A stretch of 64,000 bases of DNA, taken from Rubellimicrobium rubrum (GTDB taxonomy: Bacteria; Pseudomonadota; Alphaproteobacteria; Rhodobacterales; Rhodobacteraceae). The notes under the pieces are model-generated. The model was not told the DNA's origin and made no database searches. It was given only the letters and a program-made list of their open reading frames with translations. The stretch spans positions 310,001 through 374,000 of the forward strand of contig NZ_VDFU01000001.1 of assembly GCF_006152115.1 (NCBI RefSeq). The letters run 5' to 3'. Of the stretch, positions 40,989-62,028 are shown one piece after another. A program made the translations under genes and the position numbers. Position 1 is the first letter of the stretch. Each line of letters opens with the position of its first letter.

Positions 40989-43457
40989 CTAGCTTTCAGA
41001 GATCGGCCGTCTCGTTTCCAGACCAAAGAGGTCGTTGGCGCAGCGCAGGACCGGGGGCCCCGTGAGCGCGATCAGGTCGAACTGCCGATCGCTCCGCACG
41101 TCGATGGTGCGGCGCTCACCAGGGAGAAGCGTGATGAGCATTTCGTCGGCCTCCGCCTCCGGGTCGAGCCGGTCGGCGAAGAAACACAGATCCTTGAGCA
41201 GGGTGCGCGCCTCGATCTCCACGAGGCAGCCGGCCTGGTGTCGGTGGAGCGTGACGGAGAAGTCGGGCGGCGGGAGCGCGAGGTGCACGTCCTCCGCAAA
41301 GTAATGGGTTGCCGTGCAGTCCCCCATCGTGGCGACGATCAGTTCGCGCGCAGAGTCGCCGGGCGTCGCGATCTCGGGCGGGATGGGCAACTCCTCGGCC
41401 GTGAAACGGTCCACGCACAGTCGCCAGTGACGATGCTCGGCCAGCACAGTGCCGTCGAAGCTCAGGCGACGCAGGTGGACGGGCACGCGCCAGAACATTG
41501 GGGCGTCGTTGATCGCCACGGCGGCCAAGCCATCCCCGCGCGGCTGGATGGTCAGGAGGTGGGGCGCGAAGATCCGACGCAGCGCGTACCAAAGCGGTTT
41601 TCGCTGCCCCCGGCTGTCGATGGCGGACCAGGACGTGACCGGCCAACAGTCGTTAAGTTGCCAGACAATCGCGCCCATGCAGCGGGGGCGGTGGGAGCGC
41701 CAGTGCTCGACGGCCAAGGCGATGGCGCGTGCCTGATTGAGCTGGGTGACAAAGTGCCAGTCGTCCATCGAGGATGGTCGCGGCAAGTGCCCGTCGAGCC
41801 CCCGCAGGAGCTTGTCGTTGCCGTTGGTCGCCTTCTGGTGGTGCAGCACGCCCGAGGAATCCGGCGACAGGGGGCCGCGCACGGAGGCGGACAGTGTGGC
41901 CCAGGTCGGCGGGGCCTGCCAGCCGAACTCGGACACGAGGCGCGGAACGCTGTCGCCGTAATGCTCGTAACCTTTCTCGTTCCAGACGTCCCAGACATGG
42001 GTGCAGCCGTGGTCCGGATCGTTGGGGTGGATGTCCATGGAGCCTGAATAAGGGCTGCCAGCCCAGTAGGCGCGGGCGGGGTCCAGTTCGGCCACGAGAC
42101 GCGGCAGGAGGTCGAGGTAGTAGCCCAAGCCCCAGCTGAGATCGCCGAGCGGTTCCCTCCAGCCCCAGTCGAACCAGCCCCAGATGTTTTCGTTGTTGCC
42201 GTTCCAGATCGCGAGCGAGGCATGAGGCATGAGGCGGACGATGTTGTCCCGGGCCTCGGCCTCGATCTCGGCAGGGAGTTCACCCTCCTCCGGATAGGCT
42301 GCGCAGGCAAAGAGGAAGTCCTGCCAGACGAGGATGCCCGCCTCGTCGCAGGCGTCGTAAAAGGCGTCCGTCTCGTAGATGCCACCGCCCCAGACGCGAA
42401 GAAGGTTGATGTTGGCCGCCTTGGCCTGCGCGACGCGGGTGCGGTAGCGCTCAGGCGAGACTCTGGGCAGAAAGATATCGTCTGGGATCCAGTTGGCGCC
42501 GCGAACCCAAACCGGGACCTCGTTCACCACGAGGGCAAAGGCGGAACCATGGACGTCGGGCGAGGTATCCAGGCGAATGGAGCGGAAGCCGACGCGGCGG
42601 GTCCACTGATCAAGCTGCACCTGAGAGGAAGTGAGGCGCACGGACAGACCATAGAGGGGTTGGTCGCCGAGACCGTGCGGCCACCAGAGCTGGGGGTCTG
42701 CGACCAAGAGAACGAGGCGCGCCCGGCCAGTCGCGGGATCGACCACGGCCCGGGCAGTCACTCCGGCCACCCCGGCCTCGACCGTAAGGGGGACGTCCGG
42801 GTCGAGGAGTTCGACGACGACATCGATCTCTACCGTCCCCTGCCCTCCAGCAAGGCTGACGGTCGGGCGGACCTCGCTGAGACGCGCGACGGACCAGCTC
42901 TCAAGCCGGACAGGCTTCCAGATGCCTGCGGTGACGACGGTCGGCCCCCAGTCCCAGCCGAAGTTGCAGGCCATCTTGCGCGTGAGGTTCGCCGGGCCCG
43001 GGTAGTTGGCGGGTCGCGGCGCGACCTGCTTCGCGAGGTCCTTGCCCTCGGCCCAGGCCGAGCGAAACGCGACCTCGAGCCGGTTTGCCCCCTCGCGCAG
43101 ATGAGGCGTGATGTCGAGCCGGTAGATCCGGTTCATGTTGCGCGTCTCGCCGAGACTGTGCCCGTTCAGCGTGACCGTGGCAAAGGTGTCGAGCCCTTCA
43201 AACACGAGATCCACGCGGGGATCGTGGCCCGCCCAGTCGAACGTCGTCCGATAGGTCCAGTCCTGCCGACCAACCCAGTCCTGTGCGATCTCGTTGCTGT
43301 CGAGGAACGGATCGGGCAGGAGCCCAGCCGCCAGCAGGTCCATATGGACGACACCCGGAACCTCGGCCGGGATGGAGTCTGGCAGACCGGGAGGCAGGGA
43401 CGGCCCCGTACCGCGCAGGACCCATTCCGTTGGGAGAGCATGGCTGGTGAGGGGCAT
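40989..43457 (-). CDS. Beta-mannosidase, glycoside hydrolase family 2
   Basis: An 822-residue enzyme from ATG 43457 (a 50-residue in-frame extension has no motif). The N-terminal domain has VPGVVHMDLLAAGLLPDPF and DWTYRTTFDW, typical of beta-mannosidases, then NFGWDWGPTVVTAGIWKPV. The barrel carries LLRVWGGGIYETDAFYDACD, acid/base Glu423 in WNGNNENIWGW and nucleophile Glu510 in LVSEFGWQAPP; the WQLNDCWPVTSWS segment near residue 635 is also family-typical. No signal peptide, so it should trim cytoplasmic beta-mannosides. It is isolated, with IS6-derived DNA on both sides and no transporter adjacent. It may serve the sugar importer at 25-29 kb. Confidence 0.92.
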   Translation of the reverse strand: MPLTSHALPTEWVLRGTGPSLPPGLPDSIPAEVPGVVHMDLLAAGLLPDPFLDSNEIAQDWVGRQDWTYRTTFDWAGHDPRVDLVFEGLDTFATVTLNGHSLGETRNMNRIYRLDITPHLREGANRLEVAFRSAWAEGKDLAKQVAPRPANYPGPANLTRKMACNFGWDWGPTVVTAGIWKPVRLESWSVARLSEVRPTVSLAGGQGTVEIDVVVELLDPDVPLTVEAGVAGVTARAVVDPATGRARLVLLVADPQLWWPHGLGDQPLYGLSVRLTSSQVQLDQWTRRVGFRSIRLDTSPDVHGSAFALVVNEVPVWVRGANWIPDDIFLPRVSPERYRTRVAQAKAANINLLRVWGGGIYETDAFYDACDEAGILVWQDFLFACAAYPEEGELPAEIEAEARDNIVRLMPHASLAIWNGNNENIWGWFDWGWREPLGDLSWGLGYYLDLLPRLVAELDPARAYWAGSPYSGSMDIHPNDPDHGCTHVWDVWNEKGYEHYGDSVPRLVSEFGWQAPPTWATLSASVRGPLSPDSSGVLHHQKATNGNDKLLRGLDGHLPRPSSMDDWHFVTQLNQARAIALAVEHWRSHRPRCMGAIVWQLNDCWPVTSWSAIDSRGQRKPLWYALRRIFAPHLLTIQPRGDGLAAVAINDAPMFWRVPVHLRRLSFDGTVLAEHRHWRLCVDRFTAEELPIPPEIATPGDSARELIVATMGDCTATHYFAEDVHLALPPPDFSVTLHRHQAGCLVEIEARTLLKDLCFFADRLDPEAEADEMLITLLPGERRTIDVRSDRQFDLIALTGPPVLRCANDLFGLETRRPISES

Positions 43458-43682
43458 GCAAGCATCCGTACTGGAGGTGCTACTATCGCTCGATACGGCG
43501 CTGTCATGCCCGGATGGCGCCGGTGACCACAAGAACTGATTTGGTGGCGTGGATTCAAAGCCATCGCGCGACGGCTCGACATACCAAAGTCGAGGATATG
43601 CTGCCATGTGCCGAGGACGGACACGTTGCCGGATGCAGTCGCCTCAGGCCCCATGGTCGGAGTCGGACCAATGCGACCGGCA

Positions 43683-46297: not shown

Positions 46298-47245
46298 ATG
46301 CTGAGACGGATTTTCTTGGGAGCGGGGGCGATGTTGGCCCTTGTATCTGGAGCAACGGGCGCACTTGCGCAGGAGGAAGGTGCCAGGACCTTCTACTGGA
46401 TCTCGCATGGGGCGCCAGCCGACCCCGTCTGGACCTACTTTCTGCAGGGCGCGGAGCAGTGGGCTACGGATACCGGCCATTCAGTGAACACCTCCTTCCA
46501 TTCGGGCGATGTACCCTCTCATCAGGAGGCCGTACGTGCGGCCATCGCCGCAGGCGCCGACGGCATCTGCTCGACGAGCCCCGACCCGGGCTCGCTGGTT
46601 GATGTAGTTGCCGAAGCGCGCGCCGCAGACATCCCGATCGTCAACTTCAACACGTCCGACGAGGCACCGGACTGGAACGCCTATGTAGGTGGCGACCTGC
46701 TATCGATCGGCCGGCAGTGGGCGCAGTACCTCGTGGACAATCAACTTGTGCAGGAGGGCGACTTCGTCTGGATGCCTGTCGAGGTTCCTGGCGCATCCTA
46801 TGGCGTGGAGGAAGAGCGGGGCATCGCCGAGGTCTTCGAGCCCCTGGGCATCACCTGGGAGGTGACCGACGCCACGCTCGACCAAGCCGAGATCATCACT
46901 CGTATGACCGACTATCTGACGGCGAACCGGGAGCGCATCTCGGCCATAATCGGCCTCGGGGACTTGGTGACCGGCTCGGTCCAGCGGGTCTTCGACCAAG
47001 CGGGGATCCCGGCTGGCGAGATCCCGGTCGTAGGCTGGGGCAACAGTCTCGACACCACGCAGGCGGTGATGGACGGCTACGTCAACGCTGCCATGTGGCA
47101 GGACCCGCAGGCTACCTCTTACATGTGCCTGTCGTCCCTCCTCATGGAGTCCTCGGGCATTCCGATCGGCTTCGACGTCCTTACCGGCGCGCTCTACGAG
47201 GCCGAGACGGCGCAGCTTTACCACGGAATCATGGGCGGCCAGTGA
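46298..47245 (+). CDS. Ribose/inositol-type ABC transporter substrate-binding protein (MocB-like position)
   Basis: A 315-residue periplasmic binding protein. GGAGGAG precedes the ATG. The signal peptide is GAGAMLALVSGATGALAQ. The mature fold is the ribose/galactose type (Peripla_BP_4): FYWISHGAPADPVWTYFLQGAEQ, DVPSHQEAVRAAIAAGADGI, an ADIPIVNFNTSDEA strand, and the C-terminal GLGDLVTGSVQRVFDQAG. The ligand is probably a monosaccharide, cyclitol or derivative. First gene of a three-gene importer; the moc-like enzymes nearby suggest a methylated cyclitol or sugar. Confidence 0.9.
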   Translation: MLRRIFLGAGAMLALVSGATGALAQEEGARTFYWISHGAPADPVWTYFLQGAEQWATDTGHSVNTSFHSGDVPSHQEAVRAAIAAGADGICSTSPDPGSLVDVVAEARAADIPIVNFNTSDEAPDWNAYVGGDLLSIGRQWAQYLVDNQLVQEGDFVWMPVEVPGASYGVEEERGIAEVFEPLGITWEVTDATLDQAEIITRMTDYLTANRERISAIIGLGDLVTGSVQRVFDQAGIPAGEIPVVGWGNSLDTTQAVMDGYVNAAMWQDPQATSYMCLSSLLMESSGIPIGFDVLTGALYEAETAQLYHGIMGGQ

Positions 47246-47308
47246 CGGCGGCTCCGGCCTGCGCCCCCTCGGGCACGGGCCTTTCCTCCCTTTTCCCCGG
47301 TGTCGACC

Positions 47309-48352
47309 ATGGCCAACTCAACCTCTGCGCTGCCGGCTCATCCACCCCGGCCAGGCGCGCTCCGTGCGTTCGTCTCCAAGCCTGAGTTCGGGCCGCTGGT
47401 GCTATTGGTGGGGATGATCGTCGTCTTCACCTCGATCAACCCCGCTTTCCTGTCGCTGACCAACATCGGCAACGCCCTGACCTTCACGGTCGAGCTGGGC
47501 TTTATTGCGCTCGCCATGACCCTCCTCATGACGGCGGGCGAGTTCGACCTGTCCGTGGGTTCGGTCTTTGGCTTCGCCCCGGTCGTGATGTGGACGCTGG
47601 TCAACACCGGAACTATGCCGCTTGGGCTGGCTTTCTTGGTGGCGCTTCTGCTTGCGCTGGGCATCGGCCTGATCAGCGGGCTCTTCGTCACGCGTCTCGC
47701 CATCCCCTCGTTCCTGGTCACACTGGGGATGCTCCTCGTCGTGCGTGGCACGGCGCTCTGGCTCACAGATGGCTTCCCCCAGCGCACTTGGAACGCCGGC
47801 GAGCAATGGCTCGCGCAGGTTCTCGTGGGCGAGATTTGCATGGGGGGCGAAGGCGTAGGCTGCGCCGGCGGCCTTCGCATCTACATGAGCCTGATCTGGT
47901 TCGCCATCATCGCCGTTGCCTTTCACTACCTTCTGACCGGAACGCGCTTCGGTAACTGGATCCAGGCCACAGGCGGCAATCCTGGCGCGGCGCGTAACCG
48001 CGGCGTCAAGACCGGTCGCGTCAAGATCATCCTGTTCATGCTCTCGGCCTTGTTGGCCGCCTTCGCGGGAGCCATCTCATCAATCCGTGTCTCGGCCGCA
48101 AATCCGAACTCGGGGACGGGCTACGAGCTCGAGGTCATCGCGATGGTAGTCATCGGGGGCACCGTGCTGACCGGCGGGCGCGGCACCATCGTTGGCACGG
48201 TCCTAGGCGTTCTGATCCTCCGTCTGATGCGCAACGGGATCGTCATGATCGGGGTCCCGGGCCTCGCCTACAACATCTTCATCGGCGCTATCATCCTGGG
48301 GATGATGGCGCTCCATTCCGGCCTTGAGCGCCGGCACAACCCGGGGACCTGA
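47309..48352 (+). CDS. Ribose-type ABC transporter permease (RbsC/FrcC family)
   Basis: A 347-residue inner-membrane protein with about 8-10 helices. Typical segments are NIGNALTFTVELGFIALAMTL, LMTAGEFDLSVGSVFG (the conserved G-x-IDLSVGS loop with Phe-Asp), RLAIPSFLVTLGMLLVVRGTAL and AMVVIGGTVLTGGRGTIVGT. ATG 47309 is preferred over GTG 47300; neither has a strong ribosome site. The ATPase gene begins 2 bases after its stop. Confidence 0.92.
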   Translation: MANSTSALPAHPPRPGALRAFVSKPEFGPLVLLVGMIVVFTSINPAFLSLTNIGNALTFTVELGFIALAMTLLMTAGEFDLSVGSVFGFAPVVMWTLVNTGTMPLGLAFLVALLLALGIGLISGLFVTRLAIPSFLVTLGMLLVVRGTALWLTDGFPQRTWNAGEQWLAQVLVGEICMGGEGVGCAGGLRIYMSLIWFAIIAVAFHYLLTGTRFGNWIQATGGNPGAARNRGVKTGRVKIILFMLSALLAAFAGAISSIRVSAANPNSGTGYELEVIAMVVIGGTVLTGGRGTIVGTVLGVLILRLMRNGIVMIGVPGLAYNIFIGAIILGMMALHSGLERRHNPGT

Positions 48353-48354
48353 CC

Positions 48355-49122
48355 ATGGCCGGAGCCAACGGCGACATCCTCGTAGACATGCGGAACATTG
48401 AGAAGTCCTACGGCGGCGTTCACGCGCTCCGGGGCGTTAACTTGTCCATCCGACGTGGAGAGATCGTGGGGCTCTTGGGCGATAATGGTGCCGGCAAATC
48501 CACCCTGATCAAGGTACTCTCCGGCGCCGTCCCCTATACGAGCGGCGAGATCGTCATCAAGGGCCGCCCTGTACGGATGCGCTCAACCCTCGACGCTATC
48601 GCCAATGGCATCGAGACGATCTATCAAGACTCAGCGCTGGTCCCGCAGCTCTCCATCGCACGCAACCTGTTTTTGGGGCGCGAACTGCGCAAGGGCCCAC
48701 GCTTTCTCGATCGCCTGGACCTCGATCGAATGAACGGGGTCGCGGCCGAGCTCTTGCGCCGAGTGGGCATCTCCAAGAACATTCCGCCCACGACTCCGAT
48801 CGGTTCGCTGTCCGGGGGAGAGCGTCAGGCTGTGGCAATCGCCCGCGCCATGTACTTCGAGAGCGACCTCATCATCCTCGACGAGCCGACCAACAATCTC
48901 GGCGTGGCCGAGACGCAGGGGGTCCTCCGCTTCGTGCGCGAAGCGAGGGACACCGGCCACAGTTGCGTCTTCATTGCTCACAATATTCATCATGTCTTCC
49001 AAGTGGTAGACCGAATTGTGGTCATGCGCCGAGGCACCATCGTATCGGATGATCTCTCGCCCCGGACGTCCTCTATCCAGGAAGTCGAGGACATCATCAC
49101 TGGCGAGCCTGTCGCAGCATAA
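48355..49122 (+). CDS. Single-domain sugar ABC ATP-binding protein (FrcA-like)
   Basis: A 255-residue ATPase with Walker A GDNGAGKST (about residues 42-50), the Q-loop IYQDSALVPQLS, signature LSGGERQAVAIARAM, Walker B LIILDEPTNNLG and the H-loop AHNIHH. It has a single nucleotide-binding domain, unlike the double-domain RbsA, and so resembles the FrcA branch used for fructose, ribose or mannose. It closes the importer operon. Confidence 0.93.
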   Translation: MAGANGDILVDMRNIEKSYGGVHALRGVNLSIRRGEIVGLLGDNGAGKSTLIKVLSGAVPYTSGEIVIKGRPVRMRSTLDAIANGIETIYQDSALVPQLSIARNLFLGRELRKGPRFLDRLDLDRMNGVAAELLRRVGISKNIPPTTPIGSLSGGERQAVAIARAMYFESDLIILDEPTNNLGVAETQGVLRFVREARDTGHSCVFIAHNIHHVFQVVDRIVVMRRGTIVSDDLSPRTSSIQEVEDIITGEPVAA

Positions 49123-49420
49123 CTCGCACAGCCTTGGCCCGCGCAGTTCGCTCCGCTTTCGACCAATGGTCGGGTCTTCTCAATGAACACGCTGTTCAGG
49201 ATGAGAACTGCGAGGTCGCGCCGATTAGCTTTACGGCTATGCCGCCCTGGACAGCGCGTTTGGAGGCGACACTCGGCGGTATTTCCTTGTGTGCGCCTTC
49301 CTGGAGAAATGATGCTCGCTCAAACATACAGAGCTGGCAGCGACGTGAACGGGGAAGGTCGGAATCGCCTGGGTCGGGACGAACGGTTCGCGGGAAGCAG
49401 CACTTTAGGTCGGCAGGACC

Positions 49421-49735
49421 TCAGTCCACCTGCACGAGCACGCGCCCGCCCTCGGCGCGGGCCGGATAGGTCCGCAGGTTCACGCAGACGGGCGCACGCT
49501 TGGCCTGCCCGGTGCGATAGTCGAACTGCCCGTTGTGCTTGGGGCACTCGATCACGTAGTCCATGACGAGGCCGCCCGCGAGATGGACGTTCTCGTGAGT
49601 GCACAGACCGTCCGTGCAGAAGAACTCGCCATCCGGGCTGTGGTAGAGCGCATAGGTCTTGCCCCCGTGATCCCAGCGCATCACGTCCTCTTCGTCGATC
49701 TCGTCCACCGCGACGGCGTCGATCCATTGGGTCAT
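49421..49735 (-). CDS. mocE: Rieske-type [2Fe-2S] ferredoxin, MocE-like
   Basis: A 104-residue Rieske protein. The ATG at 49735 follows a GGAG-type site; an upstream in-frame extension overlaps the regulator gene and lacks motifs. The cluster ligands are Cys45 and His47 in LCTHENVHL and Cys64 and His67 in IECPKHNGQFD. MocE-type ferredoxins pass electrons to the MocD membrane oxygenase in rhizopine degradation; a MocD homologue is encoded at 54637-55782, on the other strand. It lies 70 bases downstream of the LacI-type gene in the same orientation and may be cotranscribed. The electron source (a MocF-like reductase) is not in the window. Confidence 0.88.
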   Translation of the reverse strand: MTQWIDAVAVDEIDEEDVMRWDHGGKTYALYHSPDGEFFCTDGLCTHENVHLAGGLVMDYVIECPKHNGQFDYRTGQAKRAPVCVNLRTYPARAEGGRVLVQVD

Positions 49736-49805
49736 CGTATGCTCCTTTGTTTGGCGTGAAGAAAAGCGCTGCGCCACCGACTCGGCACAGCGTCCGGTGC
49801 GTTGG

Positions 49806-50840
49806 TCAGTCCTCGGGCAGGTTTTCACGGAAGACGACTTGAAGGCGGGGGGCCACGACTGCGTATGACTCCTGCCGGGCGGCCATGGTCAGTGCGTTGA
49901 GCGCCTCGCGCGCCTCGACCCGGGGGTTCTGGTCGATAACGGCATCCAGCACCCCTTCGAGCAGAAGCCGCTTGTTTCCCTCAGTCGCCTCGTGCCCGAT
50001 CAGCACCACGCGACGCGAGAGGTCACGCTCGCCAAGAGCCCGGGCGATGCCGGGGTTGCCAGCACCGGCGTTATAAATGGCCGCAAGGTCGGGATGGACG
50101 TTCAGAAGAGCCTGCGTTTCGGCATGCGCCCGGTCGGGATCATCCATGCTTTCGCATTGCGCCACGACCTGGACTCCAGGAAAATCCTCGGCCAGCACGG
50201 ATCGGAAGCCCATTTCGCGTTCCTCGTGGCCGCGGTAGAACCGTGAGCCCGCGAAGAATGCCACCTTGGGGGCGTCGCGGCCCACTAGGAAACGGCCCAG
50301 GATGTAGCCCGCCAGCCGCCCCGCCTGTCGGTTGTCGACGCCGATGTAGGCGACCCGCGGCACAGTCAGGACATCCGAAACCAGGGTCGCCACCTTGACC
50401 CCGCGCTGCGCCAGACGACGCAACCCTTCGCGGACAAGTGGATGATCCAGTGCTACAAGCCCGAGCCCGTCGAGTCCGGCTGGTACCTGATCGAGGTGGC
50501 GGGCGAGGCTACTGGGGTTGAAACCCTCGATCGTCTCGATCCGGACGTCCAACTCGGGGCGTGCGGCGGCCTGCGCCTCGATCTGTCGTCTTAGCGCGGC
50601 GATGAAAGCATTATTGCCTGCAGGCAGCAGGAAGCTGAAGCGAAGACGGCCTAGCTGGCTCTCCGCCACAGTGGGCGCTTCGACCTCCGACAGGTAGCCC
50701 AGGCGCTTCGCCGTGGTGAGGACGAGGTCGCGTGTTCGGGGATGGACGCCCTGCCGATTGTTGATGACTCGATCAACGGTGGCCGAAGACAGCCCAGTCT
50801 CCCGCACGAGATCCGACAAGGTGGGACGAAGCGGAGCCAT
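49806..50840 (-). CDS. LacI family transcriptional regulator of the moc-like locus
   Basis: A 344-residue regulator with an N-terminal helix-turn-helix (PTLSDLVRETGLSSATVDRVINNRQGVHPRTRD) and a ribose-type sensing domain (FSFLLPAGNNAFIAALRRQIEAQ, IGVDNRQAGRLAGYILG, YNAGAGNPGIARAL, VLIGHEATEGN). It is divergent from the MocA-like operon with about 500 bases between, and its downstream partner is the Rieske gene. It probably represses both the importer and catabolic genes until the substrate appears. This resembles the LacI regulators of inositol and rhizopine loci in role; the ligand is not known. Confidence 0.92.
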   Translation of the reverse strand: MAPLRPTLSDLVRETGLSSATVDRVINNRQGVHPRTRDLVLTTAKRLGYLSEVEAPTVAESQLGRLRFSFLLPAGNNAFIAALRRQIEAQAAARPELDVRIETIEGFNPSSLARHLDQVPAGLDGLGLVALDHPLVREGLRRLAQRGVKVATLVSDVLTVPRVAYIGVDNRQAGRLAGYILGRFLVGRDAPKVAFFAGSRFYRGHEEREMGFRSVLAEDFPGVQVVAQCESMDDPDRAHAETQALLNVHPDLAAIYNAGAGNPGIARALGERDLSRRVVLIGHEATEGNKRLLLEGVLDAVIDQNPRVEAREALNALTMAARQESYAVVAPRLQVVFRENLPED

Positions 50841-51345
50841 AGCGAAAACGACCTAACAAAGCCTCAGGGCAGGGTGTGGGAACAAATGCTCCTGGCCTAC
50901 CAACATGAAAAAACAATCATCTGTCTAGCCGGCCCCCAAGAAGGCTGCAGTCCTGCATGATGGCTTCTGATCTAATCTGATGACTATGTCGGCGAGATGT
51001 CAAGGCTCGGCGGCCGGGGATCAGGCTACCCATGTCAGCAATAGCAGTGGCGTTCTGCATTGGCTTAGCCGCCCAGCATCTACAGCGGCGTCTAGACCAC
51101 CCAAGCGGCGATCTTGCAGGAAATGATTGACAGCGGCCTTTGCTCATCAGAAAACATCATCCGAGATGAGGAGGCATCTCAGCTGCGGGTCGCGCTGGGC
51201 GGACGCAGGCCCGGGCCGGCATGGTTCGCCACCAGCCCCCGGCGCTGCGCAGGGCCAAGGATCGTCTGCGGCATTGACGGCCCAGCGCCGCGGCCCTCGA
51301 CGGGACAGGCCGGCCCGCCGTCCGGGTAACGTGAGGAGGAGAGGC
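50841..51345. promoter_or_regulatory. Divergent regulatory region of the moc-like locus
   Basis: These 505 bases hold no credible gene. TTGACA at 51127-51132 is a possible -35, with a poor -10 near 51150. GAGATG at 51163-51168 and CATCTC at 51175-51180 form an inverted repeat that could be a regulator site. GAGGAGGAGAGG directly before 51346 is a very strong ribosome site for the dehydrogenase gene. Confidence 0.4.
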
Positions 51346-52437
51346 ATGAGAAGCGCGACGGACTTCGCTCCGGACCCCGAGGTCCGCAGCCGGCAGTTCC
51401 GCATCGGCTGCATCGGCGCGGGCATGATCATGGCTGACTGCCACCTCGCTGCCTACAGGCAAGCGGGCTTCCCGGTCGCGGCGATTGCCTCGCGCACCGA
51501 AGCCCGCGCCCAAGGCGTCGCGGATCGCTGGGGCATCCCCAAGGTCGTGCCCACGCCCGAGGCCCTGATCGAGGACCCCGAGGTCGAGATCCTCGACATC
51601 GCCTATCCGCCCGACCAGCAACCCGCACTGATCCGCCATGCGCTGCGCCAGCCGCACATTCGGGGCATTCTCGCTCAGAAGCCGCTGGCGCTGACGCTGG
51701 CCGAAGCCATCGCGCTGCGGGACGAGGCCGCCGCCGCGGGCAAGATCCTGAGCGTCAATCAGAACATGCGCTACGACCAGTCGATGCGCGTGCTGAAGCA
51801 GATCCTCGACCGGGGCGACCTGGGCGAGGTCGTCTTCGCCCAGATCGACATGCACGCGATCCCGCACTGGCAGACCTTCCTCGAGGACTACGACCGCCTG
51901 ACCCTCGCCAACATGAGCGTCCATCACCTCGACGCGCTGCGCTTCCTGTTCGGCGACCCCGACGAGATCACGACCGTCGCCCGCAAGGACCCGCGGACCC
52001 GGTTCGAGCATGGCGACGGCATCACTGTCTCGACGCTGCGCTTCCCGTCGGGAGCGCTGGCGCTGAGCCTGGAGGACGTGTGGTCCGGCCCGCGCGAGAA
52101 GGGCTACAAGGACGACCAGCACATCACCTGGCGCGTGGAAGGGATCGAGGGCGTCGCCAAGGGCAGCATCGGCTGGCCCACGGGCGCGGCCTCGACGCTC
52201 ACCTACGCCTCGCGCAAGGCCACCGGCGGCGAATGGGTCACGCCCAGCTGGGACACGATGTGGTTCCCGCACGCCTTCGTAGGGGTGATGGAGCAGCTTC
52301 AGCACGCCATCGCTACCGGCACGCCGCCCGCGCTGTCCGTGGAGGACAACGTCCGGACCATGGCGCTCATCGAGGCCGGCTATCGCTCCATCGCCGAAGG
52401 GCGGACCGTGCGGCTCGACGAGATCAGCATCCGATAA
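51346..52437 (+). CDS. Gfo/Idh/MocA family dehydrogenase (MocA-like)
   Basis: A 363-residue NAD(P)-dependent oxidoreductase. The Rossmann domain starts FRIGCIGAGMIMADCHLAAY (about residues 18-37) and continues DIAYPPDQQPALIRHAL. The usual EKP motif reads Gln111-Lys-Pro in ILAQKPLALT. The C-terminal substrate domain has the His-containing MSVHHLDALRFLFG. Family members oxidise inositols, sugars and inosamines; MocA acts in rhizopine catabolism. GAGGAGGAGAGG fixes the start. It leads a run of five genes on the plus strand with short gaps or overlaps (26 to about 55 bases, one 4-base overlap). Confidence 0.9.
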   Translation: MRSATDFAPDPEVRSRQFRIGCIGAGMIMADCHLAAYRQAGFPVAAIASRTEARAQGVADRWGIPKVVPTPEALIEDPEVEILDIAYPPDQQPALIRHALRQPHIRGILAQKPLALTLAEAIALRDEAAAAGKILSVNQNMRYDQSMRVLKQILDRGDLGEVVFAQIDMHAIPHWQTFLEDYDRLTLANMSVHHLDALRFLFGDPDEITTVARKDPRTRFEHGDGITVSTLRFPSGALALSLEDVWSGPREKGYKDDQHITWRVEGIEGVAKGSIGWPTGAASTLTYASRKATGGEWVTPSWDTMWFPHAFVGVMEQLQHAIATGTPPALSVEDNVRTMALIEAGYRSIAEGRTVRLDEISIR

Positions 52438-52462
52438 GACCGACCAGGGGAGGAACGTCACC

Positions 52463-53374
52463 ATGCTGCAGACCGGGATCTTCACGGGGTACTTCCCCTA
52501 CGGCCTGGAAGAGACGGCGAAGCGCATCCGCAGCCACGGCTTCAACACCGTCCAGCTCGACCTGCACTTCAAGGACATCGACCTGAGCCACGGGCAAATC
52601 ACGCCCGACAAGGCCAAGCGCGTGCGCGACACCTTTCGCGACAACGACCTGCCGATTTCCTGCATCTCGGGCTACACGAACATCATCCACCCGGACGAAG
52701 GCCATCGGACCCAGAATGTCGAGCGGCTGAAAGAGATCATCCGCAACGCCCGCCTGTTCGGCACGCCCTACGTCATCTCCGAGACGGGAACCTACAACAC
52801 CGAATCCGAATGGATGTCGGACCCTAAGAACCGGACCGAGGAAGGCTTCGAGACCTGCCGCAAGGTGATAGCCGAGCTCGCGCAGGAGGCTTACGACCAC
52901 GGGTCGATGTTCCTGCTGGAAACATACGTGAATAATGTAGTTGGCTCGGTCGAAGAAACGGTGCGGATGTTCGCGCAGGTGGACCATCCGGGCCTCGGGC
53001 TGCTGATGGACCCCACGAACTACTTCGAGGACCACAACATCGACCAGATGGACCGCGTCCTGAACCAGGTCTTCGACACGCTGGCCGACAAGATCAAGAT
53101 TGCGCACGCCAAGGACGTGGCCCGCGCGCAGGACACGACCGAAAAGCACGCCGATATCGGCGACGACGACGCGCTAGCCTCGCACACCTTCCGGGGCGTG
53201 GGCGCCATCGCGCTCGACGCGCCGGGGATGGGGGTCCTGAACTACGACCTCTACCTGAAGCGGCTGAGCGAGAAACACCCGAACATCCCGATCATCATCG
53301 AGCATCTCGACGAGGCCGACGTGCCCCGGTCGAAGAAGTTCCTTGAGGACAAGATGCGGGTCCAGGGCCTGTGA
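52463..53374 (+). CDS. Sugar phosphate isomerase/epimerase (xylose isomerase-like TIM barrel; MocC/IolE-like)
   Basis: A 303-residue TIM-barrel protein. GGGGAGGAA lies before the ATG. Probable metal ligands are Glu in MFLLETYVNNV, Asp in GLLMDPTNYFE, the KIAHAKDV strand and Glu in IIIEHLDEAD. The family holds isomerases, epimerases and inosose dehydratases, among them MocC and IolE. The neighbouring dehydrogenase would supply a keto-sugar or inosose, the usual substrate class. Confidence 0.9.
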   Translation: MLQTGIFTGYFPYGLEETAKRIRSHGFNTVQLDLHFKDIDLSHGQITPDKAKRVRDTFRDNDLPISCISGYTNIIHPDEGHRTQNVERLKEIIRNARLFGTPYVISETGTYNTESEWMSDPKNRTEEGFETCRKVIAELAQEAYDHGSMFLLETYVNNVVGSVEETVRMFAQVDHPGLGLLMDPTNYFEDHNIDQMDRVLNQVFDTLADKIKIAHAKDVARAQDTTEKHADIGDDDALASHTFRGVGAIALDAPGMGVLNYDLYLKRLSEKHPNIPIIIEHLDEADVPRSKKFLEDKMRVQGL

Positions 53375-53380
53375 CGATCC

Positions 53381-53405
53381 CGGGCCGCCTGCCACGGGCG
53401 GCCCG
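53381..53405 (+). other. Intra-operon hairpin
   Basis: CGGGCCGCC at 53381-53389 pairs perfectly with GGCGGCCCG at 53397-53405 in the gap between the isomerase and DUF4432 genes. With no T-run and more genes following, it may be a partial terminator or mRNA-stabilising stem. Confidence 0.4.
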
Positions 53406-53428
53406 CCCCCAACACCTGCGAGATCCCG

Positions 53429-54640
53429 ATGCCTGACCTTTACGGCCGCACCCTGTCCCGACGCGATCTGGCCGCCTATACCGGGTCACTGTCGGCCTAC
53501 GGCGGCGTGCGGCTGTTCACGCTGGGCGACGGGGCCGAGCGGGGCGTGCGGATGCTGGAGTTCCGGACGGGGACGGGCTTGCGCTTCACCGTCGCACTTG
53601 ACCGCGCGATGGACATCGTGGAGGTCGAGCACAAGGGCCGGTCCATCGGCTGGCACTCCCCCGCCGGGTTGCGCCACCCCGGCCTGCACGACCCCGAGGG
53701 CGAGCAGGGGCTGGCCTTCGCGCGCTCCTTCACGGGGTTCCTCGTGACCTGCGGACTCGACCACATCCTCGGGCCCGAGGAGGTCCCGGCCGACAGCTAC
53801 AACTACCCCGGCAAGACGACCATCCGCCATGTCCTCCACGGGCGCGTCACAGCCATCCCCGCGCGGCTCATCGGCTACGGCGAGCGGTGGGAGGGTAATC
53901 GCTGCATCCTCTGGGCCGAGGGGGTCGTGAGGCAGTCTGCCGTCTTCGGCGAGAACCTGCACCTTCATCGCCATATCGAAGCCGACTTGGGGGGTGACGA
54001 GATCCGCCTTTCTGACCGCGTGGTGAACGAAGGCTTCCTCAGGACGCCGCACATGTTCTTCTACCACGTCAACGTGGGGCACCCGGTGCTGGAGGAGGGC
54101 AGCCGCTACCTCGCGCCGATCCGCGACGTGGTCTGGGCCGCCCATGCCGCTCGCTACCGCGACCAGGGCGTGGGCTACAGGACCGCCCCGGCCCCCATTC
54201 TCGATTTCGTGGAACAGGTCTGGCAGCACGAGATGGCGGCCGACCCCGCTGGCGAGGTGCCGGTGGCCCTGGTCAACGACCGCCTCGGGTTCGGGATCGA
54301 GGTCGCGACGCGCAAGGACCAGCTTCCCTGCGCCTACCAGTGGCAGAACTTCCAGGCGGGCAGCTATGCCCTTGGGATCGAGCCCTCCACGCACCATGTC
54401 CTGGGCGACAACGCCGCGCGCGAGCGGGGCGAGATGATCTGGCTCGGCCCCCAGGAGGCCCGCGACTATCAGGCCCGCTTCCGCGTCCTCGACGGCGCGC
54501 AGGCCATCGCCGCCACCGAGGCGCGCATCACCGCCATCGCCGCCCAGCCCGACCACAACTTCCCCGAGCCCTCGGGGCGCTTCCGTCCCCTTCGCCCCAC
54601 GACGCCCCAAGACCTCACGACAGAGGAGGTTCCCTCATGA
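53429..54640 (+). CDS. DUF4432 / aldose 1-epimerase-like family protein
   Basis: A 403-residue protein of the galactose-mutarotase superfamily. Recognisable segments are GVRMLEFRTGTGLRFTV, ALDRAMDIVEVEHKGRSIGW, HSPAGLRHPG, FLVTCGLDHILGPEE, SYNYPGKTTIRHVLHGRV, DRVVNEGFLRTPHMFFYHVN and PCAYQWQNFQAGSYALGIEPS. The fold binds sugars and interconverts anomers; the precise function of DUF4432 members is unsettled. It overlaps the desaturase-like gene by four bases. Its presence suggests the substrate or an intermediate passes through a cyclic sugar form. Confidence 0.85.
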   Translation: MPDLYGRTLSRRDLAAYTGSLSAYGGVRLFTLGDGAERGVRMLEFRTGTGLRFTVALDRAMDIVEVEHKGRSIGWHSPAGLRHPGLHDPEGEQGLAFARSFTGFLVTCGLDHILGPEEVPADSYNYPGKTTIRHVLHGRVTAIPARLIGYGERWEGNRCILWAEGVVRQSAVFGENLHLHRHIEADLGGDEIRLSDRVVNEGFLRTPHMFFYHVNVGHPVLEEGSRYLAPIRDVVWAAHAARYRDQGVGYRTAPAPILDFVEQVWQHEMAADPAGEVPVALVNDRLGFGIEVATRKDQLPCAYQWQNFQAGSYALGIEPSTHHVLGDNAARERGEMIWLGPQEARDYQARFRVLDGAQAIAATEARITAIAAQPDHNFPEPSGRFRPLRPTTPQDLTTEEVPS

Positions 54641-55782
54641 CCAGCATTCCGTCCCCCACCCCGCCCCGCTCTCACCGCCCGCTGTCCGATTATGCCCTGA
54701 CGGGGGACGCCTCCCGCCGGGCGGTCGAGATGGGACTTTCGGCGGCCGAGTGGTACCACACCGAAGTGCCGCGCAAGGTCATGAAGGAGTTGATGACCCG
54801 CACCGACGGCCCGGCGATCCGCGACACGGCGATCTGGATCGTGCTGCACATCCTGACCGCCGCGGGGGGCATCTACTTCTGGGGCACCCTCTGGTGCGTC
54901 CCCTTCTGGATCGCCTACGGCGTCCTCTACGGCTCGGCCTGCGACTCGCGCTGGCACGAATGCGGACACGGCACGGCCTTTCGCACGGGCTGGATGAACG
55001 ACGCGGTTTATCACATCGCCAGCTTCCAGGTGATGCGGAACCCGGTGAACTGGCGCTGGAGCCACGCGCGCCACCACACCGACACCATCATCGTCGGCCG
55101 CGACGCCGAGATCGCTTGGATGCACCCCGTCCGCTTAAGCCTCAAGGCGCTGGCCTATGTGGGCATCGTCGACGCCTGGCAGTCCTTCAAGGTCATCTGG
55201 CGCAACGCGCGCGGCGAGATCACTGGCGAGGAGAAGGACTACATCCCCGAAACCGAATGGCCCAAGGTCATCTACTGGGCGCGCGTCCACATGACGATCT
55301 ATGGTCTCACCGCGCTCGTGGCCCTGGGGATGCTCCTGGGCGGGATGGGGTGGAAGTCGATCATCCCCTTCATGGTGATCGGCCTGCCGCGCCTTTTCGG
55401 CTGCTGGCACATGGTGATGACCGGCCTCCTCCAGCACGGCGGGCTGGCCGAGGACGTGCTCGACCACCGGCTTAACAGCCGGACGGTCTATATGAACCCG
55501 ATCAGCCGCTGGATTTATTGGAACATGAACTACCACGTGGAGCACCACATGTTCCCCATGGTGCCCTACCACGCGCTGCCCCGCCTCCACGAGATCATCA
55601 AGCACGACCTGCCCACGCCGAACCCCTCGATCTGGGCGGCCTACCGCGAGATGTTCGGGGCCGTCATGCGCCAGCGCCGCGAGCCCGGCTACTACCTCCA
55701 GCGCGAGTTGCCGCCCACCGCGCGGCCTTACAAGGTCGAGCTTCATGACGCCCGCGCAGTGCCCGAGCGCGCACCGGCCTGA
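54637..55782 (+). CDS. mocD: Membrane fatty-acid-desaturase-type oxygenase, MocD-like
   Basis: A 381-residue di-iron membrane enzyme. Its ATG lies inside the preceding stop with an AGAGGAGG site. The three His boxes are intact: HECGH (107-111), HARHH (143-147) and HVEHH (300-304). Hydrophobic segments are near residues 64-100 and 220-265. Unlike lipid desaturases, MocD-type members work with a Rieske ferredoxin (MocE) and are implicated in oxidative removal of the O-methyl group of rhizopine. A MocE homologue lies 5 kb away, so the pair is available. Demethylation is inferred from that precedent; a hydroxylase or ordinary desaturase remains possible. Confidence 0.88.
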   Translation: MTSIPSPTPPRSHRPLSDYALTGDASRRAVEMGLSAAEWYHTEVPRKVMKELMTRTDGPAIRDTAIWIVLHILTAAGGIYFWGTLWCVPFWIAYGVLYGSACDSRWHECGHGTAFRTGWMNDAVYHIASFQVMRNPVNWRWSHARHHTDTIIVGRDAEIAWMHPVRLSLKALAYVGIVDAWQSFKVIWRNARGEITGEEKDYIPETEWPKVIYWARVHMTIYGLTALVALGMLLGGMGWKSIIPFMVIGLPRLFGCWHMVMTGLLQHGGLAEDVLDHRLNSRTVYMNPISRWIYWNMNYHVEHHMFPMVPYHALPRLHEIIKHDLPTPNPSIWAAYREMFGAVMRQRREPGYYLQRELPPTARPYKVELHDARAVPERAPA

Positions 55783-55797
55783 CCCCCCTCGGACCTC

Positions 55798-56631
55798 ATG
55801 GGACAGATGATGCGAAGAAAGCCGACCGTCGCCGACCTCCGGGCCCTCAAGGGGCGGCGCCAGCTCACCATGTTGCGCTACTTCAGCCTGGAGGAGGCCG
55901 GGGCCGCCGAACAGGCGGGGATCGACATCGCCTCGGTCCCGCCCGAGATCGCGGCCGATCCTCGCCACCGCGAGGTGGCACCCAGCATCTTCACCATGAC
56001 CGGTCTCACGCATCTGGAGGCCGGCACGCCCGAGGACTATCTTCGCTGGTCGGGCGACGCGCTCCAGAAAGGCGCAGATGCCATCTATTGCTCGGGCAGC
56101 CTGCGGACGGTCGAGTACCTCGCCAGGGAGCACATCCCCGTAGTGGGCCACGTGGGCCTCGTCCCCTCGCGCGCGACCTGGACGGGCGGCTTCAAGGCCG
56201 TGGGCAAGACGGCCGAGGCGGCGCTGCGCCTCCTTGATGAGGTCAGGGCCTACGAAAGCGCTGGCACCTTTGCGGTGGAGATCGAGGTCGTGCCAGTCGA
56301 GGTCGCGACCGCCATCAGCGAGCGCGTAGGGATCCTCCTGTGGTCGATGGGCGCTGGCCCGGGCTGCGACGCACAATACCTCTTCGCCAACGACATCCTG
56401 GGCACCACCGAGGGCCACGTCCCCCGTCACGCCAAGCCGTACCGTGACTTCCGCGCCGAGTACGCCCGCCTGCAAGCCGAGCGCGTTGCCGCCTTCCGTG
56501 AGTTCATCGCTGACGTGGAAAGCGGCGCCTATCCCGAGGACCGGCATATCGTCCGCCTGCCCGACGACGAGATCGAGGCCTTCATGAACGGACTCGAGGA
56601 AAGGACAGTAGATGCAGATGCCGCAGGCTGA
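55798..56631 (+). CDS. Divergent ketopantoate hydroxymethyltransferase (PanB)-like protein
   Basis: A 277-residue TIM-barrel protein similar to PanB along its length: KPTVADLRALKGRRQLTML at the start, then IPVVGHVGLVP, GGFKAVGKTAEAALRLLDEV, FAVEIEVVPVEVA, the GAGPGCDAQYL signature and ADVESGAYPEDRH near the end. The usual metal-site GDSLGM loop is replaced by SVPPEIAADPRH, and the Asp-Met-Pro strand is changed, while the catalytic Glu in EIEVVP is kept. It is therefore unlikely to be ordinary PanB. Last in the moc-like run, 15 bases after the oxygenase gene; capture or transfer of a one-carbon unit is an attractive but unproven role. Start choice among 55798, 55807 and 55810 is uncertain. Confidence 0.82.
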   Translation: MGQMMRRKPTVADLRALKGRRQLTMLRYFSLEEAGAAEQAGIDIASVPPEIAADPRHREVAPSIFTMTGLTHLEAGTPEDYLRWSGDALQKGADAIYCSGSLRTVEYLAREHIPVVGHVGLVPSRATWTGGFKAVGKTAEAALRLLDEVRAYESAGTFAVEIEVVPVEVATAISERVGILLWSMGAGPGCDAQYLFANDILGTTEGHVPRHAKPYRDFRAEYARLQAERVAAFREFIADVESGAYPEDRHIVRLPDDEIEAFMNGLEERTVDADAAG

Positions 56632-58614: not shown

Positions 58615-59399
58615 ATGACCGACGCCTTTCCCCGTGTGTTCAGATAGGCCAAGCCGGTCATTGCCATGGTTCACCTAGGCGCGCTGCCCGGAGCACCGCT
58701 CTGCGATGAGGCACTAGGGGTGGAAGGGCTGATCGACGGCGCCCGCGCCGACCTCCAGGCGCTCTAGGCCGCCGGCGTCGACGCCGTCATGTTCAGCACC
58801 GGGAACGACCGCCTCTACGGGATGGAGGTGGATACCGCCTCGACCGCCACGATGGCCTATGTCGTCGGCTGCCTGCGGCCCGAGATCACGGCTCCGTTCG
58901 GGGTCAATGTCCTGTGGAATCCAATGGCAACCGTGGCCCTCACCGCCGCTACCGGGGCTGCCTTCGTGCGCGAAATCTTCACCGGCACCTACGCCTCCGC
59001 CATAGGCATTTGCTCCCTGACGCGGGCGAGCCTATGCGCTACCGCAACCGGCTCGCCCGTCGCGACCTCGCCATGCTCTACAATATCTCGGCCGAGTTCG
59101 CGGACAGCCTCGACGGCCGTCCCCCGTCCGACCGCGCCCGCTCCGCCGTTCTCTCCTCGATCCCCGACGCAGTCCTCGTCTCGGGCCAGATCACCGGAGA
59201 GGCCGCGCGGATGGAGGATCTCGAAGCCGTCAAGCGGGTGCTACCGTCCACGGCTGTCCTCGCCAACACCGGCCTTGAGCACGACACCGTGGACGAGGTT
59301 CTGCGCATCGCGGACGGCTGCATGGTGGGTTCCGCGCTCAAGGTCGATGGTCACACCTGGAACGCAGTGGACCCGGAGAGCGTCAAGGCCGCCCGATGA
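58615..59399 (+). pseudogene. BtpA/SgcQ family protein, pseudogene
   Basis: ATG 58615 with an upstream AGGAAG site opens MTDAFPRVFR and meets TAG at 58645. The frame continues AKPVIAMVHLGALPGAPLCDE, a second TAG at 58765, then AAGVDAVMFSTGNDRLYGMEV and PFGVNVLWNPMATVALTAAT. Near 59015 a frameshift moves the rest (DLAMLYNISAEFADSL, VLVSGQITGEAARMEDLE, GCMVGSALKVDG) to the second frame, ending at 59399. The order is that of BtpA/SgcQ TIM-barrel proteins of uncertain function that accompany sugar-uptake operons. Two stops plus a shift make it non-functional. It overlaps the next pseudogene in an ATGA arrangement, so the original operon layout is preserved. Confidence 0.85.
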
Positions 59400-60478
59400 G
59401 CCTCCGCGACGACTTCTCGGCGCGCTGCCTCCTCCCCGCCCTCTCGACCCACGATGAGACCGTCGCAGGTTGGCTTCGCGACCGTCTCTCGGACCTTGGA
59501 CTGTCCTCACGCACGGACCGCCTGGCCAACCTGATCCTGACCCTTCCGGGCGAGCCTGACCGTTCTTCCGTCATGGTTTCTGCCTACATGGATTAGCTCG
59601 GCTTCTTCGTGCGCAAGGTCGAGCCGATGGACTTGTCCGGGTGGAGCGCATGGGCGGCGTGGCCGAGAAGGCGATGCTCGCGGGGGCCGTCCTCCTCTGC
59701 CCGCCCGGCCGCGATCCCGTTCCCGGCGTCATCATGACCAAGGCTCACCACGCGACCCAGCCGGGCGAGAGGTACAGGGTCCCCACCGCCTCCGAGATCT
59801 GCATCGACACCGGCCACGCATCCCGCACCGCCGTCGAGGCCGCCGGCACCCGCATCGGCACCCCGGTCGTCTACCATCCCCGTGTCCCGCCCCTCGCGAA
59901 CGACCGCTTCGCCGGCACCGCCGTGGACGATCGCGCCGGCTGCGCCGTCCTCCTCGACGTGGCCCGCGCTGATGAACCGGCAGGGCGTCCCAACGGTTCA
60001 CCTCGTCTGGTCCGTCCAGGAGGAGTTCAACCTGCGCGGCGCCGTCGTCGCAGCCCAGACCCTCAAGCCCGACGCCGCAATCCAGTTCGACCTCATGCTC
60101 GCCACCGACACGCCCGACATGGCCGACCGGGACGAGATGGCCGTGGGCAGCGGGCCTGGCACGAGCCTTTACTCCTTCCATGGGCGCGGCACCCTGAACG
60201 GCGTGACCCCACACCCTGCCCTCGTCAGCCTGATCGAGGACACCGCCGAGGCCGAGGGGATGCAGCTCCAGCGCTTCGCCCAAGTGGGCGTCCCCACGGA
60301 CCTCTCCTCGGTCCAGATGGTCGGCGAGGACGCCGCCTCCATCGACCTCGGCTTCCCCATGCGACACTCCCACTCGGCGCTGGAGGTTTGCGACCGCCGC
60401 GACCTCAAGTCCCTCTCCCGCCTTCTTGTGGCGGCGCTGGACCGAATCGGACCGGACCTGAAGCTGGAGCGTGGTTGA
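59396..60478 (+). pseudogene. M42 family metallopeptidase (SgcX/FrvX-like), pseudogene
   Basis: MSLRDDFSARCLLPALSTHD opens the frame. The metal-binding segment expected as AHMDELGF reads AYMD followed by TAG at 59594, so a His ligand is replaced and the next Glu codon is a stop. A frameshift near 59637 leads to VERMGGVAEKAMLAGAVLL, AGTAVDDRAGCAVLLDVA (the AxDDRxG metal motif), and a second shift near 59970 to VHLVWSVQEEFNLRGA, the catalytic Glu-Glu, and MRHSHSALEVCDRRDL. Gene order and fold match M42 aminopeptidases found in SgcQ/SgcX-type carbohydrate operons. Clearly inactive. Confidence 0.85.
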
Positions 60479-61895
60479 TGGCGATCACCATGGGCGTCGA
60501 CATCGGCACCTTCGAGTCGAAGGGAGTCCTCGTCGACAACGGCCGCGTCCCGGCCTTGCCGAGCATCGACCGGAAGAGGACTGGCGGGACGCCGTCACCC
60601 ACCTCTGCCGCGCTCTCCTTGCCAAGGTGCCGGGCGCCCAGGTCGAGGCCCTCGCCATCAGTGCCATCGGCCCGTGCTGCCTGCCCGTGGACGAGTCCGG
60701 CTCGCCCCTCCGCACCGGCATCCTCTACGGCGTGGACACCCGCGCCACCGCCGAGATTGCCGAGCTGAATGAGCGGCTCGGCAGGGAATACATCCTCGCC
60801 CTCGCCGGTGCCGCCCTCACCTCCCAGGCCGTAGGCCCCAAGATCCTTTGGCTCCAGCGCAACGAGCCCGGGGTTTGGTCCTGCACGGCGCGGCTGCACA
60901 CCTCGACGAGCTTCATCCTCGAACGCCTGACGGGTGCCTTCGCGATGGACCACTACACCGCCGCGAGCTGGGCGCCCCTTTACGACATGGCGCGCCAAGC
61001 CTGGGCCGCAGACCTCCTAGGTATCCGCGAACCGCCTCAACTGCCCGATCTGGTCCGCCGAGATCGCCGGCTACGTCACTGCCGAGGCCGCCCATGCCAC
61101 TGGCCTGCCTGAAGGCCTCCCCGCCACGACCGGAACCATCGACACGGCCGCTGAGGCGGTCTCGGTCGGCGTCCCCCGCCCGGGCGATCTGATGCTGATG
61201 TATGGCTCCACCGTCTTCGTCATCGAGATCACCTCAGGCCGCGTCACCGACCCGCGACCCTGGACCGCCCCTTGGCTCTTTCCGGGTCAGCATGCTGCCA
61301 TGGCCGGCCTCGCAATCTCTGGCACTCTGACCCAGCGGTTCCGCGAGGTCGTGGCCCCGGGCCTCCATCGCGACACTGCCTTCGAGAGCCTTGCCCGAGA
61401 GGCCGAGACCTTACCACCCGGCGCGCGCGGCCTTCTCTGAATGCCCTACTTGTCGGGCGAGCGGACCCCGATCCATGACCCTATGGCGCGGGGCGTGTTC
61501 TTTGGCCTGAACCTCACCCACACGCGCGGGAACCCTTTCCGCCCCGCCCTTGAAAGCATCTCCGCCGCAACTCGCCAGATCGTAGAGGCCGGGGCGGCTC
61601 CGACCCGTGTCATAGCCGTGGGCGGCGGTACCAAGATGTCGCCTTGGCTCCAAGCTACGTCCGACATGACCGGCCTGCCACAGGAGCCTCGCTGCGTCAC
61701 GCTTGGGGCCGCCTATGAGAATGGTTTTCTCGCCGCCCTCGCCCTTGGCGTGGCGCAGGCTGAGGACATCGACATTTGGAACCCGCCGGAGGGACCGTCG
61801 AACCTCGCGACGTCCCCGCCTACGCGAAGAGCTATCCCCTCTTCCGACGTCTCTACGAGCAGACCAAGGACCTTATGCACGAGTTACCGGCCTGA
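60478..61895 (+). pseudogene. FGGY family carbohydrate kinase, pseudogene
   Basis: MAITMGVDIGTFESKGVLVDN is the ATPase-fold N-terminus. A shift with likely loss of some codons near 60545 leads to GLAEHRPEEDWRDAVTHLCR, ILYGVDTRATAEIAEL and LTGAFAMDHYTAASWAPLYD. Another shift near 61026 leads to EIAGYVTAEAAHATGLPEG. TGA at 61438 interrupts ARGLL-stop-MPYLSGERTP, a highly conserved kinase segment. VIAVGGGTKMSPWLQATSDM and AYENGFLAALALGVA follow, with a last shift near 61797 before AYAKSYPLFRRLYEQTKDL and the stop at 61895. Similar to xylulokinase-like FGGY kinases. It was the third gene of the decayed operon. Confidence 0.85.
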
Positions 61896-62028
61896 CCGTC
61901 AGACAAAGAGGTCCGGCCGTTCCTTCCCCAGCCGCTCCACCTGCGCCACGACCCGCCGCAGTGCTTGGCGTTGGTCATTTCCAGGGCGGTAGGCCGAGAT
62001 CGGAACTGGCACCACCCCTCCTCGCTGC

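Follow-up and report, generated by a model that had tools for sequence, protein, structure and literature searches.

The 64,000-nucleotide stretch of Rubellimicrobium rubrum DNA analyzed here (contig NZ_VDFU01000001.1, positions 310,001 to 374,000; referred to as the window) carries at positions 46298-56631 an island of importer, regulator and catabolic genes that includes homologues of the rhizopine proteins MocD and MocE and ends in a gene for a non-canonical relative of the pantothenate enzyme PanB (PanB-like). The metal ligands of PanB have been lost in this protein family, and its genes are associated with oxygenase genes across many genomes. The reading we favor, to which we give slightly less than an even chance, is that the MocD- and MocE-like proteins oxidatively remove the methyl group of an O-methyl sugar or cyclitol after its import, while PanB-like would pass the released one-carbon (C1) unit to tetrahydrofolate (THF).

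The PanB-like protein has lost the metal ligands of PanB

The PanB-like protein of the window scored 106.9 bits against the NCBIfam panB model (TIGR00222) and thus failed its cut-off of 207.55, and the genome encodes a separate canonical panB at C36. A comparison of the PanB-like and canonical PanB profiles yielded 239 aligned columns with a probability of 99.8, and the predicted fold is that of PanB (AlphaFold2 pLDDT 81.4 and pTM 0.82, with low confidence in loops 122-133 and 204-215), with all Foldseek ranks from 1 to 28 being PanB chains (TMt 0.64-0.74). In contrast to the fold, much of the active site differs. In E. coli PanB numbering, EcD45 and EcD84 being the two metal ligands, Asp was retained by 5 of 55 PanB-like proteins at EcD45 and by one of 55 at EcD84, compared with 7/7 in PanB; the window protein carries P49 and G69 at these positions. 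The Lys112 site was occupied by Tyr (43 proteins) or Met (11), and the Lys/Glu pair of PanB is lost. The equivalents of His136 and Glu181 (His118 and Glu163 in PanB-like) were kept in 55/55 proteins, while Glu161 and His211 are new and invariant in the PanB-like family.

The accessible text of one report states that RHE_PE00443 of Rhizobium etli plasmid p42e, a protein without detectable metal domain, fails to complement a panB mutant, with the data not shown there (PMC3082293). RHE_PE00443 can almost certainly be equated with the PanB-like gene in the R. etli LacI-MocD-MocE-MocF cassette (488817-489632; the last 45 kb of p42e were examined), because plasmid, product name and length agree, the record itself showing new locus tags only. 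A duplicate true PanB serving pantothenate synthesis is ruled out by the residue changes together with the non-complementation given in that text.

PanB-like genes are associated with oxygenases

The surroundings of PanB-like genes were surveyed in 60 loci: the window, six plasmid loci and all 53 other family members located in two samples of relatives, one of 101 and one of 385 genomes. Family membership was judged by full-length matches with E 1e-39 or better, which a gap separated from partial matches of 1e-33 and weaker; among plasmids, 644 records had some match to PanB-like, however partial (true PanB included), and 279 had one over at least 80% of the query. An oxygenase gene was located within 5 kb of the PanB-like gene in 42 of the 60 loci, and either an oxygenase or MocE in 47. 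The overlapping oxygenase classes, whose Pfam names were checked on representatives, were MocD (29), FA_hydroxylase (PF04116; 10), Rieske oxygenase (4) and PhyH (4), the latter two being thin since they were the sole class in only one locus (L101) and three loci (L104, L110 and L114), respectively. L066, L077 and L105 were counted as misses yet have an oxygenase farther along, and L091 starts at a contig end. Among 20 hand-picked canonical panB loci of the same genomes, searched with the same oxygenase queries, one had an oxygenase and none had MocE (Fisher p 2e-7, relatedness ignored). In a tree, the PanB-like proteins formed one clade versus PanB (100/100), within which the label of the nearest oxygenase switches repeatedly.

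By hand tally, PanB-like was found in 17 of the 101 relative genomes, each time together with a MocD homologue (E 1e-25 or better), while 7 of the 24 genomes with MocD lack PanB-like (association p 4e-14, relatedness ignored). Since all genomes of this sample with PanB-like have MocD and the reverse fails, PanB-like looks like an accessory of the oxygenase and not the other way around.

Further arrangements were observed outside the island. The same genome carries a second MocD-MocE-PanB-like cassette (G000:C12:6337-8553; L081, L234), apparently decayed, with in-frame stops in MocD and PanB-like, as well as a third PanB-like gene (G000:C27:22547-24451; L079) accompanied by MocE and a TIM barrel, in which FA_hydroxylase replaces MocD. 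At L090:7887-12500, MocD-MocE-MocF-PanB-like is followed by a glycine-betaine-type binding protein (OpuAC), and the module may also serve N-demethylation there.

Organization of the island

Open reading frames (ORFs) and their Pfam/NCBIfam profile matches define ten genes in 46298-56631. An earlier note, made from the sequence alone, had described this region as a rhizopine-type catabolic island; every family it named is present, and our analysis refined the strands of the LacI and ferredoxin genes as well as the MocA and MocD starts. The genes are:

46298..47245, plus strand: solute-binding protein of a ribose-type ABC importer (Peripla_BP_4, E 2.3e-36)
47300..48352, plus strand: importer permease (BPD_transp_2, E 1.8e-42)
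48355..49122, plus strand: importer ABC ATPase with a single nucleotide-binding domain (ABC_tran, E 4.5e-34)
49421..49735, minus strand: MocE-like Rieske [2Fe-2S] ferredoxin (PF00355, E 1.3e-18; CxH and CxxH readable in the translation)
49806..50840, minus strand: LacI-family regulator with ribose-binding-type effector domain (LacI and Peripla_BP_4)
51346..52437, plus strand: Gfo/Idh/MocA dehydrogenase, MocA-like (GFO_IDH_MocA, PF01408, E 8.5e-17)
52463..53374, plus strand: xylose-isomerase-like TIM barrel, probable isomerase, epimerase or lyase (AP_endonuc_2, E 1.6e-28)
53429..54640, plus strand: DUF4432, aldose-1-epimerase-like (PF14486, E 8.2e-95)
54637..55782, plus strand: MocD-like membrane di-iron oxygenase with a predicted role as O-demethylase (FA_desaturase, E 1.6e-31, with three recognizable His boxes)
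55798..56631, plus strand: PanB-like, non-canonical family accompanying oxygenases (Pantoate_transf, E 1.9e-40, profile positions 91-258 of 259 only)

The last five form a plus-strand operon (51346-56631) with spacings of -4 to 54 bases, while the importer genes occupy 46298-49122 on the same strand. Between them, LacI and, 70 bases on, the Rieske gene (ATG at 49735, end at 49421) lie on the minus strand, convergent with the importer and divergent from the catabolic operon; two forward-strand ORFs tried for the Rieske gene had no Pfam and no plasmid match. For the MocA-like gene the most likely start is ATG 51346, after GGAGGAGAG, rather than 51127, and for the MocD-like gene it is 54637, so that the two genes share 4 bases at the stop of DUF4432. 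The MocE-like gene belongs to the same island, although at 6.1 kb from PanB-like it lies beyond the 5-kb limit. A promoter and operator search of the LacI-MocA gap found no promoter-like sites and no convincing repeat. LacI is 80% identical to its counterpart in the orthologous island of the same genus (L078), and the solute-binding protein 86-90% in two same-genus loci and 70-71% in R. etli/Kim5, beside PanB-like in all of these.

A partial IS240/IS6-type DDE transposase (PF13610; 45525-46364, minus strand) adjoins the first importer gene with its end, and a glycoside hydrolase family 2 gene (40989-43607, minus strand) is located upstream of the island. The operon just downstream (58789-61992; BtpA, M42 peptidase and FGGY sugar kinase) is decayed or frame-shifted, its BtpA and FGGY domains each being split between frames.

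Conservation of the island

Named genomes were scanned with an alignment of 21 PanB-like proteins, and the best 80 of at least 455 relatives were kept (80 named loci), a set that leans to close relatives because the best matches were retained and in which some genomes give two loci. MocD was found within 5 kb of PanB-like in 74 of these loci, always on the same strand (74/74), MocE in 64 and either one in 77; the three loci with neither are contigs of metagenome-assembled genomes (MAGs) labelled Actinomycetota. MocA, TIM barrel and DUF4432 occurred together in 33/80, which identifies them as a conserved module, and these three along with MocD, MocE and three importer genes lay within 8.5 kb of PanB-like in 20/80, 17 of them named Mesorhizobium. 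The genes thus travel together widely, as the earlier note's co-occurrence check called for, and their grouping exceeds chance. The partners vary: Rhodobacter MAGs L146 and L149 carry an MR_MLE dehydratase and an SDR, L167 has a polyamine-type importer, and R. etli-type loci contain a family that matches no Pfam profile. This conserved family of about 350 residues (L032:15696-16742 and relatives) was present in 12/80 named loci and sits beside PanB-like and the importer where DUF4432 is absent.

Relation to rhizopine loci

The MocD-like protein shares 64% identity with MocD of five rhizopine-type loci, all of which have MocR, while identities are 61-64% for MocE and 55-59% for PanB-like. In Rhizobium indicum (L037), whose MocR passes the rhizopine MocR model NF052281 (739 bits vs 650), PanB-like and purU come next after the mocDEF genes. 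Phyllobacterium zundukense, Sinorhizobium meliloti RCAM1115, R. lentis and S. meliloti BL225C have MocR proteins 87-99% identical to it and the order mocDEF-PanB-like-purU (MocD of RCAM1115 is unannotated and BL225C wholly so, its genes being located by tblastn and its PanB-like match being in two pieces). The accessible part of PMC10107442 describes only mocDEF, mocR, mocBA and mocC. As PanB-like directly follows mocDEF in all five loci, it belongs with the demethylase, and the suggestion that its presence marks a variant pathway is contradicted. DUF4432, likewise placed outside the rhizopine set, is indeed missing from the annotation of the four rhizopine-type stretches that have one, but it is part of the conserved module with MocA and the TIM barrel.

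When 44 MocD rows were placed in one tree with the genome's two other FA_desaturases, the window protein grouped with same-genus orthologues (86% identity to L078), while the rhizopine MocD rows fell inside a separate 15-row clade (99/100) to which the window subclade is sister. Judged by its sequence, the window MocD is a member of the rhizopine MocD family from a different subclade, and it did not group with the two other FA_desaturases, which are placed on very long branches far from MocD.

Apart from the MocD, MocE and PanB-like homologues, the island shares a MocA-type dehydrogenase and a ribose-type importer with the rhizopine loci of Sinorhizobium, Rhizobium and Phyllobacterium. In contrast, LacI is its only regulator and no MocR matching NF052281 is present, no MocF-like ORF was found in the window (the nearest in the genome, at G000:C104, has 43% identity), DUF4432 and the TIM barrel stand in place of the annotated rhizopine set, MocE is divergent from the operon, and purU and folD are absent from the window. 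The solute-binding protein reached 55.6 of the 420 bits required by the rhizopine model NF052284, a weak test since both solute-binding proteins of the rhizopine-type L037 (39.8 and 138) miss the cut-off as well. LacI in place of MocR, the lack of MocF and the MocD subclade rule out a rhizopine locus in the strict sense. The part of the earlier description that stands is an island for import, demethylation and catabolism, which remains the best reading given the close MocD/MocE homology and the wide co-occurrence of the genes.

Proposed pathway and alternatives

We infer the following course of events. The ribose-type importer would take up an O-methylated sugar or cyclitol sensed by LacI, and MocD would hydroxylate the O-methyl group with electrons from MocE and a ferredoxin reductase encoded elsewhere, possibly the 43% MocF homologue, so that the methyl group would leave at the oxidation level of formaldehyde. 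PanB-like, with its keto-acid/metal site lost and His118 and Glu163 kept, may then move the C1 unit of free formaldehyde or of a hydroxymethyl hemiacetal to THF, and the resulting 5,10-methylene-THF could be converted to formate via FolD and PurU or used in biosynthesis. DUF4432 would open or epimerize the demethylated product, whose breakdown would fall to the MocA-like dehydrogenase and the TIM-barrel enzyme. Solved relatives were weak or generic, and a substrate call from them was dropped: the best for the MocA-like dehydrogenase is 5uhw (E 6.7e-24), the sole one for the TIM barrel is 3dx5 AsbF (E 5.5e-4), and MocD has none at E 0.1. The only one for DUF4432, 3ty1 (E 2.7e-26), is a 'hypothetical aldose 1-epimerase', which favors a hemiacetal sugar over a cyclitol. 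An O-methyl aldose is a somewhat probable substrate, an O-methyl cyclitol a doubtful one and a compound of another class an unlikely one.

A link to C1 metabolism is suggested by the loci with FolD or PurU within 5 kb of PanB-like (L037, L091, L105 and five Mesorhizobium loci, with four rhizopine-type loci found via MocR on top), compared with 0/20 canonical panB control loci. By tblastn, purU follows PanB-like on the same strand after 43-75 bases, except in L091, L105 (2.2 kb) and L225. In L091, folD is located 20 bases from PanB-like and is followed by purU; in Phyllobacterium folD comes directly after purU, in R. indicum and R. lentis the folD matches are partial or split, and in Mesorhizobium purU follows PanB-like. 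According to the accessible text of PMC7073904, the spontaneous condensation of formaldehyde with THF is too slow for assimilation. On R. etli p42e, folD-purU share one stretch with a sarcosine oxidase operon, an established way of linking methyl oxidation to THF-dependent C1 genes; in that system, in contrast, a flavoenzyme carries out N-demethylation and no PanB-like protein takes part. Oxidative demethylation of 6-O-methyl-D-galactose in porphyran degraders likewise gives formaldehyde and has an adjoining auxiliary gene, but the enzyme there is a P450 instead of a di-iron membrane protein, and the accessible part of the report has its auxiliary alcohol dehydrogenase not detoxifying formaldehyde (PMC10033563).

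Several observations weigh against the proposed role in C1 transfer. FolD or PurU was found near PanB-like in only 8 of 140 loci (two surveys) and nowhere in the window, and THF is a presumed acceptor. The queries for Rieske oxygenase, PhyH and FA_hydroxylase came from PanB-like loci, which favors these classes, and the tree includes 54 PanB-like proteins, of which 12, divergent for the most part, had none of the sought oxygenase types within about 9 kb. Among 25 MocD genes of relatives (at least 50% identity, near-full-length), 13 had PanB-like within 10 kb and 12 did not, and in G008, G027 and G037 such a MocD is present with no PanB-like found genome-wide; ORFs inspected by eye around 10 of the 12 lone genes and a weaker MocD (G032) included neither PanB-like nor an obvious replacement downstream. 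MocD/MocE therefore do not need PanB-like, and an obligate unit of the two is ruled out. Finally, our reading leans on the demethylation of the rhizopine 3-O-methyl-scyllo-inosamine by MocDEF, as reportedly found by Bahar in 1998.

The same island could demethylate its substrate with a folate-free PanB-like that splits a hydroxymethyl hemiacetal or, as an aldolase, adds formaldehyde to a 2-oxo acid, general formaldehyde oxidation handling the C1 unit. The predicted PanB fold, the rarity of PurU/FolD beside PanB-like and the classification of PanB-type enzymes as class II metal aldolases in the accessible text of PMC4814558 agree with this, but enolate aldol chemistry is disfavored by the loss of both metal-ligand Asp residues and the Lys/Glu pair, and purU and folD adjoin PanB-like in three kinds of context; we consider it rather unlikely. 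Less likely again is that PanB-like acts on the imported compound's carbon skeleton (e.g. by retro-aldol cleavage or hydroxymethyl removal from a branched sugar), with MocD/MocE hydroxylating rather than demethylating. It would suit the position of PanB-like within catabolic operons that also encode a dehydrogenase, a TIM barrel and DUF4432, but PanB-like is retained where importer, regulator and catabolic enzymes are exchanged (L146/L149, L167 and the MocR/MocB rhizopine-type loci), and it is present in rhizopine-type loci, whose substrate carries a methyl ether as described in the accessible part of PMC6668481.

A true rhizopine or inosamine catabolic locus, to which the counterparts of MocA, MocB, MocC, MocD and MocE point, is very improbable given the regulator, the missing MocF and the MocD subclade, the low score of the solute-binding protein adding little. 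That MocD is a lipid desaturase among unrelated neighbors, with no demethylation, is suggested by the Pfam name FA_desaturase and is hardly credible in view of the tight MocD family, its same-strand linkage to catabolic genes and its distance from the other FA_desaturases of the genome.

Significance

In searches of one open-access library, subscription papers lying outside them, no report of a PanB-like function was found, and the only hydroxymethyltransferase mentioned alongside rhizopine was serine hydroxymethyltransferase. How formaldehyde from oxidative O-demethylation of sugars and cyclitols is handled has been little described. More speculatively than the pathway itself, we propose that PanB-like could be a previously unrecognized enzyme that loads formaldehyde, or hydroxymethyl straight from the demethylase product, onto THF. 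It would then be a folate counterpart of the formaldehyde-activating enzyme, derived from PanB through loss of the keto-acid and metal site. In the rhizopine pathway (mocDEF-PanB-like-purU-folD) its gene would be one that has been missing so far, and in many O-demethylation pathways it would act as a plug-in module. Such a C1-capture role is a testable new enzyme function. If true, it would provide an enzyme for synthetic C1 assimilation and add genes to the rhizopine pathway, which the accessible parts of PMC6668481 and PMC10107442 present as in use for engineering plant-microbe signalling. In rhizobia and Rhodobacterales, members of the family currently carry the annotation of a pantothenate enzyme, which would need correcting.

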